Shown piece after piece: positions 9,688 to 16,040 of a stretch of DNA of 34,000 nt. The stretch comes from an uncultured Nitrosomonadales bacterium (GTDB lineage: Bacteria > Pseudomonadota > Gammaproteobacteria > Burkholderiales > Gallionellaceae). Under the pieces are notes generated by a model, which worked only from the letters and a program-made list of their open reading frames with translations, was not told the origin of the DNA and ran no database searches. The translations under genes were made by a program, and so were the position numbers. The stretch lies in the NCBI GenBank assembly GCA_903876685.1, contig CAIRBC010000458.1, positions 1 through 34,000 on the forward strand. The letters run 5' to 3'. Numbering within the stretch: position 1 is the stretch's first letter; every line of letters begins with the position of its first letter.

Positions 9688-9701
9688 TTGACATTTATCA
9701 A
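9688..9701. promoter_or_regulatory. FNR/CRP-type box TTGACATTTATCAA upstream of hemN
   Basis: TTGAC-N4-ATCAA, one mismatch from TTGAT-N4-ATCAA. A CATAAT -10-like hexamer follows at 9725-9730, placing the box centre near -42. Confidence 0.6.
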
Positions 9702-9753: not shown

Positions 9754-11136
9754 ATGGATGGCAATCAACTGGTAGTGGATCTGGAACTGATACGTAGGCT
9801 GGACAAGAATGGTCCCCGTTACACCTCCTATCCGACAGCGGATCGCTTTAATGATGCATTTACCGAGCTTAGTTATAGCGGGTGGTTAGCTAAATGTCAG
9901 GATGTTGCTCAACCTTTATCACTCTATTTCCATATCCCTTTTTGCAATACGCTTTGCTTTTATTGCGCCTGCAACAAGGTTATCACCAAAGATCGTTCAC
10001 TTTCCGCTGAATATGTGCGCTACCTATGCAAGGAAATGGCCATGCAAGCACAGATCCTCGGTAAGGGCAGGGTCGTTGAACAGTTGCATCTGGGTGGCGG
10101 CACACCCACCTTCTTGAGTGATGAGCAAATTCAACAACTAATGGCGGCCGTTCGTTTACATTTCACCCTGGTAGAGGAGGGTGAATATTCCATTGAAATT
10201 GACCCGCGCAAGGTCAGTGATGAGACTATCGCATTGCTCGCGCGCGAAGGATTCAATCGCATCAGTATCGGTGTACAGGATTTTGACGACCAGGTACAAC
10301 AGGCGGTTAATCGTATTCAAAGTGAAGAGGAAACCCTACGCATTATTCATGCTGCGCGTTTGAATGGTTTTAAATCTGTCAGTATCGATCTGATTTACGG
10401 CTTACCCAAGCAGACTTTACAAGGTTTTGACACAACTCTGGACAAGGTTATAGAAGCCAAACCCGATCGCCTGTCAATTTATAATTATGCTCATATGCCC
10501 ACACTCTTCAAACCACAACGGCGCATACATGAAGAAGATTTACCGGCACCCCAGACCAAACTGGATATTCTAAGCCTGGCGGTTAACAAGTTAACCAATG
10601 CAGGCTATGTGTATATCGGCATGGATCATTTCGCAAAACCAGAAGACGAATTGGCGATAGCGCAGCGCCAGGGCAGATTGCACCGTAATTTTCAGGGGTA
10701 TTCAACCCATTCCGATTGTGACCTGGTTGCGTTGGGTGTCAGTGCCATCGGCAAAATAGGGTCTACCTACAGTCAGAATTATCGTGAACTTGAGGGTTAT
10801 TATGCTGCGCTGGACAAGGATGTTTTACCAATCATGCGAGGTATGGAATTAAATGCGGATGATCTGTTGCGTCGCTCAATTATTCAAGCGTTGATGTGTC
10901 ATTTTGAACTTTCTATAGCTTCGTTTAACCAGGAATTTAATATCGATTTTGCACAATATTTTTCTGTAGAGATAAAGGAGTTGCAGGAATATCAGTCAGA
11001 AGGATTGCTTCAAATTTCTAGTCAGCAGCTACAGGTTACCCCTAAAGGACGAATGTTGATTCGCAATATTTGCATGGTATTTGACAAATATTTACGCACT
11101 CGTACCGAGCATGCACGCTACTCCAAGGTCATTTAG
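9754..11136 (+). CDS. hemN: oxygen-independent coproporphyrinogen III dehydrogenase (radical SAM)
   Basis: 460 aa; HIPFCNTLCFYCACNK radical SAM signature; GPRYTSYPTADRF N-terminus; LHLGGGTPTFL; GGAGG RBS upstream. Confidence 0.97.
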   Translation: MDGNQLVVDLELIRRLDKNGPRYTSYPTADRFNDAFTELSYSGWLAKCQDVAQPLSLYFHIPFCNTLCFYCACNKVITKDRSLSAEYVRYLCKEMAMQAQILGKGRVVEQLHLGGGTPTFLSDEQIQQLMAAVRLHFTLVEEGEYSIEIDPRKVSDETIALLAREGFNRISIGVQDFDDQVQQAVNRIQSEEETLRIIHAARLNGFKSVSIDLIYGLPKQTLQGFDTTLDKVIEAKPDRLSIYNYAHMPTLFKPQRRIHEEDLPAPQTKLDILSLAVNKLTNAGYVYIGMDHFAKPEDELAIAQRQGRLHRNFQGYSTHSDCDLVALGVSAIGKIGSTYSQNYRELEGYYAALDKDVLPIMRGMELNADDLLRRSIIQALMCHFELSIASFNQEFNIDFAQYFSVEIKELQEYQSEGLLQISSQQLQVTPKGRMLIRNICMVFDKYLRTRTEHARYSKVI

Positions 11137-15272: not shown

Positions 15273-16040
15273 ATGACGAATTTAACAGAACAAGATCCAA
15301 GTTGTACATCGATTTCCTGCCAACATTGCGGCTTATACCAACTTGGTTTATCAATGGGACTGGATAGTGCCGACACGAGTCTTCCTGATCGCTATATCAA
15401 GCGAAAATTTATGCTTAAACGTGGTCAGGTTCTTTATCGTGCAGGTGAGGAATTTACCTCCATCTATTCCATACGCAGCGGTTCAGTCAAAACTTATATT
15501 TCTACCGATGATGGACGACTGCAAATCACCGGATTTCATGTACCTGGCGAGTTACTGGGTTTGAATGCGATAGGAGAGAATCGCTATAATTGTGAAGCGG
15601 TAGCCTTGGAAGCCTCTTCAGTTTGTAAAATTTCTCTGGAATGTTTTCAGGAAATCGCTCTACAAATTCCATCGGTGAACTACCAAATGCTCAGAATGAT
15701 GAGCAAAGAGATCAAACACCATCAAGATTTAATGTTGCTGCTCGGCAAAATGTCAGCTGAGGAGCGCTTGGCTACCTATCTTCTATCTTTGTCCCGTCGT
15801 TTCGCTTTACGCAACTATTCGCCTAATCAGTTTAATTTAAGTATGTCTCGTGGAGACATTGGCAATTATGTTGGAATCGCTGAAGAAACGGTATGTCGTA
15901 TTTTTACCCGATTTCAGGAGGAGGGTTTGATCATTATTCGTAGAAGACACATTATTCTTACTGACATTGAGCGATTAAGTGTGATCGCGCGCGAACCTTA
16001 CCAGCCCCCAACAGTTGCGCGTTATCCTTTGGAAATATGA
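15273..16040 (+). CDS. FNR-family (CRP/FNR) transcriptional regulator with atypical N-terminal cysteine motif
   Basis: 255 aa; CTSISCQHCGLYQLG N-terminus, cNMP-like beta-roll, Cys118 aligning with E. coli FNR Cys122, HTH MSRGDIGNYVGIAEETVCRIFTRFQEEGLI. Confidence 0.93.
   Translation: MTNLTEQDPSCTSISCQHCGLYQLGLSMGLDSADTSLPDRYIKRKFMLKRGQVLYRAGEEFTSIYSIRSGSVKTYISTDDGRLQITGFHVPGELLGLNAIGENRYNCEAVALEASSVCKISLECFQEIALQIPSVNYQMLRMMSKEIKHHQDLMLLLGKMSAEERLATYLLSLSRRFALRNYSPNQFNLSMSRGDIGNYVGIAEETVCRIFTRFQEEGLIIIRRRHIILTDIERLSVIAREPYQPPTVARYPLEI

Follow-up and report, generated by a model that had tools for sequence, protein, structure and literature searches.

The gene and its cluster residues

Positions 15273..16040 on the forward strand of the window (the whole 34,000-nucleotide stretch of DNA analysed here) encode an FNR-type regulator of 255 amino acids that belongs to a subgroup of FNRs found at cbb3 oxidase loci. 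Its whole-protein score against the NCBIfam FNR family (PRK11161 / NF008365) is 241.1 bits, above the curated cut-off of 228, and it contains the Pfam domains cNMP_binding, HTH_Crp_2 and Crp. The AlphaFold model, with an overall pLDDT of 86, predicts a CRP/FNR fold with its dimerisation helix and HTH; the structures that Foldseek ranks first against this model are those of A. fischeri holo-FNR, with TM scores of 0.75-0.83 (normalised by query length). A stop codon lies in frame two codons 5' of the ATG at 15273. The N-terminus is therefore fixed, and no further upstream cysteine has been overlooked. The protein is very likely a functional regulator.

All four cysteines that bind the cluster in E. 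coli FNR (C20, C23, C29 and C122) are regarded as essential. The N-terminal region of the window FNR reads DPSC11TSISC16QHC19GLYQLG25LS27MGL, giving the pattern C11-x4-C16-x2-C19-x5-G25. When it is aligned with E. coli FNR, C16 (TGC, 15318..15320), C19 (TGC, 15327..15329) and C118 (TGT, 15624..15626) fall opposite C20, C23 and C122, and all three are invariant in the alignment. The residue opposite C29 is G25 (GGT, 15345..15347). An alignment with A. fischeri FNR from the PDB gives the same correspondence. The original prediction, that glycine replaces the C29 equivalent in a protein that keeps the three other ligands, is borne out by the codons and alignments, coordinates and residue assignments included. 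Could another cysteine occupy the C29 column? None is found there in either the E. coli or the A. fischeri alignment; misalignment is ruled out and the loss stands. Because its C29 equivalent is glycine, we class the protein as FNR-type rather than as a canonical four-cysteine FNR.

Compared with the E. coli and A. fischeri proteins, the window FNR shares the fold, the family score, three of the four cluster cysteines and the Glu and Arg of the recognition helix. It differs in four replacements: C29 to Gly, P31 to Ser (S27, 15351..15353), D154 to His (H150, 15720..15722, where the Asp contributes a dimer-interface charge) and S212 to Cys. The last of these lies among the DNA-recognition residues E205..C208-R209 (15885..15899), equivalent to E. 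coli E209, S212 and R213, whose roles in DNA recognition have been described (PMC4505428); E205 and R209 are kept, and cysteine takes the Ser212 position. The Pseudomonas putida FNR paralogue PP_3287 also has Cys for Ser212 and shows lowered oxygen reactivity, but it retains all four ligand cysteines (PMC4505428).

Gly25 is genuine and recurs in relatives

The window comes from a 4.8-Mb, 600-contig assembly in a genus in which Gallionella and Candidatus Ferrigenium are the named members. A search of 76 genomes of this genus gave orthologues with 69-81% identity in 14 genomes other than the window's; three more (L060, L061 and L063) came from a genome collection, bringing the total with the window to 18. 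Residue 25 is cysteine in 14 of these and glycine in four. The Cys25 orthologues include those of Ca. Ferrigenium altingense (L003) and Ca. F. bremense (L039), which derive from enrichment cultures, as does Ca. F. straubiae (L006). The Gly25 genes come from four separate assemblies: the window's, Ca. Ferrigenium straubiae KS03 (L006/L062), Gallionella sp. nzgw563 (L040/L056) and a Gallionellaceae MAG (L008/L059). Codon 25 is GGT or GGC in the three assemblies other than the window's. A fifth, more distant Gly25 protein (about 50% identity) is encoded by a Hydrogenophilus MAG (L066); a genus-level search around this MAG returned that genome alone. Residue 27 has changed as well: none of the five Gly25 proteins has proline there (the replacements are Ser, Ser, Phe, Ser and Leu), whereas every Cys25 orthologue of the genus retains it.

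The closest homologues, which are 80-81% identical to the window FNR, carry Cys25, a result that the original prediction had named as counting against it. The loss itself is not refuted, however, as Gly25 recurs in other lineages. Might the glycine be a sequencing or assembly error, or the mark of a decaying pseudogene? The gene's position outside the usual cbb3 neighbourhood in the window's genome would suit such a reading, but we consider it extremely improbable: the reading frame is intact, the DNA-binding residues are kept, dN/dS is low, and Gly is present in five independent assemblies with Pro27 changed each time. Five independent assemblies make a base-calling error very unlikely, and we reject sequencing error as the source of Gly25. 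The loss of the C29-type cysteine is real.

The dN/dS ratio is 0.10-0.12 in the three less divergent Gly25 lineages (L006, L040 and L008), against 0.10-0.16 in Cys25 lineages. For the window FNR, synonymous sites are saturated (pS 0.89), with a pN of 0.12. By these estimates, strong purifying selection acts in Gly25 and Cys25 lineages alike.

The number of origins of Gly25

A codon-aligned DNA tree built without the N-terminal columns calls for three changes at residue 25 within the genus, where its resolution is weak. A single origin of Gly25 for all four genes of the genus is rejected: the AU test excludes the clade that would unite them (p = 0.007). A clade of L006, L040 and L008 is likewise rejected (p = 0.011), whereas neither the window with L040 and L008 (p = 0.43) nor the window with L006 (p = 0.19) is. 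These results imply either at least two origins within the genus or one origin with recombination of the N-terminal segment. L006 and L040 have the segment GFYRIGL in common, as gene conversion could produce. On the protein tree the Hydrogenophilus protein forms a long branch among Cys25 proteins; judged by this placement, its Gly25 is of separate origin from those in the genus.

The cbb3-linked subgroup and its neighbourhood

On the tree, the window FNR falls in a subgroup apart from the canonical four-cysteine FNRs of its order, with which it shares about 42-46% identity. Its C-x4-C-x2-C-G motif, the Asn/His at the D154 position and its place in the tree all assign it to this subgroup. Subgroup genes adjoin ccoNOPG; ompW and a gene for a di-haem CCP/MauG-type peroxidase frequently intervene. 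ccoNOP is adjacent at 13 of 15 Gallionella-group loci whose flanks or partial flanks were checked and at six of seven more distant ones, and the ccoNOPG neighbourhood occurs in Cys25 and Gly25 lineages alike, Hydrogenophilus included. The window's genome is different: the FNR gene lies in a ubiX/atp neighbourhood and ccoNOPG on another contig (C512). From the gene order, the FNR gene is relocated away from the cbb3 locus in this genome.

A characterized protein has the neighbourhood typical of the subgroup. The gene for Herbaspirillum seropedicae Fnr1 lies beside ompW1 and fixNOP (cbb3), and Fnr1 directly activates ompW1, fixNOP and hemN2 (PMC5934665). By description, it differs from the window FNR in retaining its cluster cysteines and in having Glu at the D154 position (PMC5934665).

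Do these genomes encode other FNRs? Ca. F. straubiae and Gallionella nzgw563 have an additional canonical-type FNR, and the genome of L059 encodes a second, four-cysteine member of the subgroup. No other close FNR was found in the window's assembly or in the Hydrogenophilus MAG, so that the Gly25 protein may be the sole FNR there, to the extent that these incomplete assemblies tell. A plasmid collection was uninformative: all FNRs in it are less than 60% identical to the window FNR, and those listed are 43% identical.

A second branch of the cbb3-linked subgroup (L044, L046, L043, L009 and related proteins) has, after CGIYGLC, an acidic or some other residue in place of proline. Its dimer helix carries E-I-L-D-N-Q, and its oxygen response is likewise unpredictable from E. 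coli FNR.

Predicted target sites

hemN, the gene for the oxygen-independent coproporphyrinogen III oxidase, lies in the window at 9754-11136 (equivalog match, 614 bits). A predicted FNR-like box, TTGACATTTATCAA (9688..9701, forward strand), precedes its start codon by 66 bp, a typical spacing for such a box. On contig C512, TTGACGTACATCAA is found 365 bp upstream of the start assigned to ccoN in this analysis. Both putative sites have the form TTGAC-N4-ATCAA, of which there are 26 in 4.8 Mb, or about 0.002 expected per 400 bp. hemN and ccoN are classic FNR/ANR targets. The two predicted boxes could instead serve another CRP/FNR protein.

Perfect TTGAT-N4-ATCAA boxes number 18 in the window's genome; most lie within ORFs, which makes perfect boxes uninformative on their own. 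One perfect box, TTGATTCATATCAA, lies on contig C139 (L089/L106) in the gap that separates a gene for a distant CRP/FNR regulator from the neighbouring norCB-like operon (gene names assigned by eye). The arrangement of box, regulator and norC/norB-like operon suggests a nitric-oxide responsive module.

The assembly itself is much larger than those of relatives (4.8 Mb versus 1.5-3.5 Mb). It contains 91 near-identical copies of GGGGTGGCAATTTGCCATGCCC on many contigs, often near contig ends, and none within the window. This high-copy repeat may explain the fragmentation into 600 contigs.

Candidates for the fourth ligand

What could take the place of the missing cysteine? The original prediction proposed C11 as a substitute, with C107 or C124 as possible contributors. 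Of the extra cysteines, only C11 (TGT, 15303..15305) occurs in every one of the five Gly25 proteins, each of which also keeps C16, C19 and C118. C107 (15591..15593) and C124 (15642..15644) are weaker candidates: the Hydrogenophilus protein lacks both, most canonical four-cysteine FNRs of the set also have a cysteine equivalent to C107, and C124 is seen in Gallionella orthologues only. C11 itself is kept in 42 of the 48 subgroup members regardless of residue 25, that is, in 37 of 43 Cys25 relatives and in every Gly25 protein (5 of 5; Fisher p = 0.50). Its presence in most Cys25 relatives means that C11 is older than the loss of Cys25 and does not covary with it statistically. The idea that it was gained as a replacement is rejected, C11 being ancestral in the subgroup. 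C11 thus survives as a plausible stand-in, but not as a residue that covaries with Cys25 or arose to replace it.

E. coli FNR offers an analogy. Its own extra cysteine, Cys16, which precedes the first ligand by x3 rather than x4, is a non-ligand; it was removed in a study of the C122A mutant as close enough to possibly become one (PMC4214427). Co-option of C11 as a ligand in the window FNR is plausible.

The explanation that we favour, at a probability of about 0.4 for the whole, is a working cbb3-linked FNR with reduced oxygen sensitivity, its cluster held by C16, C19 and C118 with or without C11. An FNR of this subgroup is normally encoded beside the cbb3 oxidase operon and would control it. 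In the window lineage the Cys29-type ligand has been exchanged for glycine; a [4Fe-4S] cluster would most likely still assemble on the three remaining cysteines, with C11 filling the fourth site or, as a fallback, that site left open or occupied by something other than cysteine. Oxygen levels that inactivate E. coli FNR would probably leave the resulting sensor active, which would fit microaerobic Fe(II) oxidisers, whose cbb3 oxidase works with some oxygen present. His at the Asp154 position would lower the barrier to dimerising free of the cluster, in the same direction as reduced oxygen sensitivity.

Cluster binding, C11 ligation and the oxygen response are all properties that we infer for the window FNR, and they do not stand equally firm. 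The cluster is probably retained in some form; C11 as its fourth ligand is a tentative assignment. Counting against the favoured explanation are the lack of covariation between C11 and residue 25 and the disorder of residues 1-11 in the AlphaFold model (pLDDT <50). So does the behaviour of E. coli FNR deprived of C122, in which cluster uptake in vivo is nearly abolished (PMC4214427): a missing ligand can disable the protein.

C11 might instead be irrelevant, with the cluster bound by three cysteines only and its fourth iron coordinated by water, hydroxide or the side chain of a residue other than cysteine. We regard this as unlikely. C11 is indeed equally common in Cys25 proteins, and such FNR clusters are documented in Acidithiobacillus (At.) ferrooxidans and in B. 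subtilis, where three cysteines and an aspartate bind the cluster. Glycine is incapable of ligation, however, and no non-cysteine candidate near the loop is peculiar to the Gly25 proteins: position 18 (H18 in the window FNR, 15324..15326, equivalent to E. coli D22) is His, Asn, Asp, Asp and Asn among the five.

Oxygen response and known systems

Has the cluster been lost altogether? With the Asp154 charge gone, a protein with a marginal cluster or none could form an apo-dimer active whatever the oxygen supply, a FixK/DNR-like regulator whose activity is set by its level. His150 at the Asp154 position is what such a protein might be expected to have: the E. coli D154A variant dimerises permanently and is significantly active in air, C122A/D154A is also an aerobically active dimer (PMC4214427), and structures of dimeric apo-D154A FNR exist. 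In 42 of 48 subgroup members the D154 position holds Asn or His, whereas 17 of 18 canonical FNRs have Asp there. Asn is also usual in four-cysteine members, however, so the replacement of Asp is no adaptation to cluster loss. Nor is the residue decisive on its own, since P. putida apo-ANR is dimeric despite retaining Asp at this position (PMC4505428). Moreover, C16, C19 and C118 are invariant in the Gly25 proteins despite a divergence (pN 0.12 for the window) that would put unused cysteines at risk. We therefore judge an oxygen-blind apo-dimer rather unlikely. The recurrence of the same loss in several relatives argues that the change is genuine and that its effect is probably to retune the sensor, not to destroy it; reduced oxygen sensitivity would be the most likely consequence of Gly25.

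The best precedent for the window FNR is that of At. ferrooxidans, which keeps Cys20, Cys23 and Cys122 and has Ser29, His22 and Ala154 (PMC6659574). It contains about 4.5 Fe per monomer, an iron content like that of a [4Fe-4S] cluster, and is unusually air-stable, with Ser proposed at the fourth site (PMC6659574). Judged from the description in that paper, the two proteins have in common C29 as the only missing ligand, His22, the absence of Asp154, a shortened N-terminus and an Fe(II)-oxidising host. The At. ferrooxidans protein differs in having Ser rather than Gly at position 29 and its extra cysteine at 40 rather than upstream, and it is 28% identical to E. coli FNR (PMC6659574). Bacillus subtilis Fnr is another natural three-cysteine [4Fe-4S] FNR; its cluster is C-terminal, the fourth ligand is Asp141 and its association state is constant (PMC3520743).

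Given these three-cysteine precedents, the Gly25 FNR is a variation on something already known. No discussion of Gly25-type ligand loss in cbb3-linked FNRs was found in the open-licence literature; as far as that literature shows, this is the first description of ligand loss in the subgroup, and of its recurrence. Ligand swapping might even be a recurrent form of tuning, in which Cys29 was repeatedly traded for an existing upstream cysteine, so that in microaerobic iron oxidisers the cluster acquired a different geometry and the sensor a higher oxygen set point, although we think this broader idea improbable. If true, repeated natural loss of one ligand at the cbb3 locus of Fe(II) oxidisers, with the other three kept, would show how evolution can shift the set point at which an iron-sulfur sensor responds to oxygen.

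The 14 Cys25 and four Gly25 orthologues form a ready natural comparison set. Five other subgroup members (L061, L063, L068, L071 and L014) have His, Tyr or Leu instead of C11 but retain Cys25, and they provide a natural comparison set for the importance of C11.
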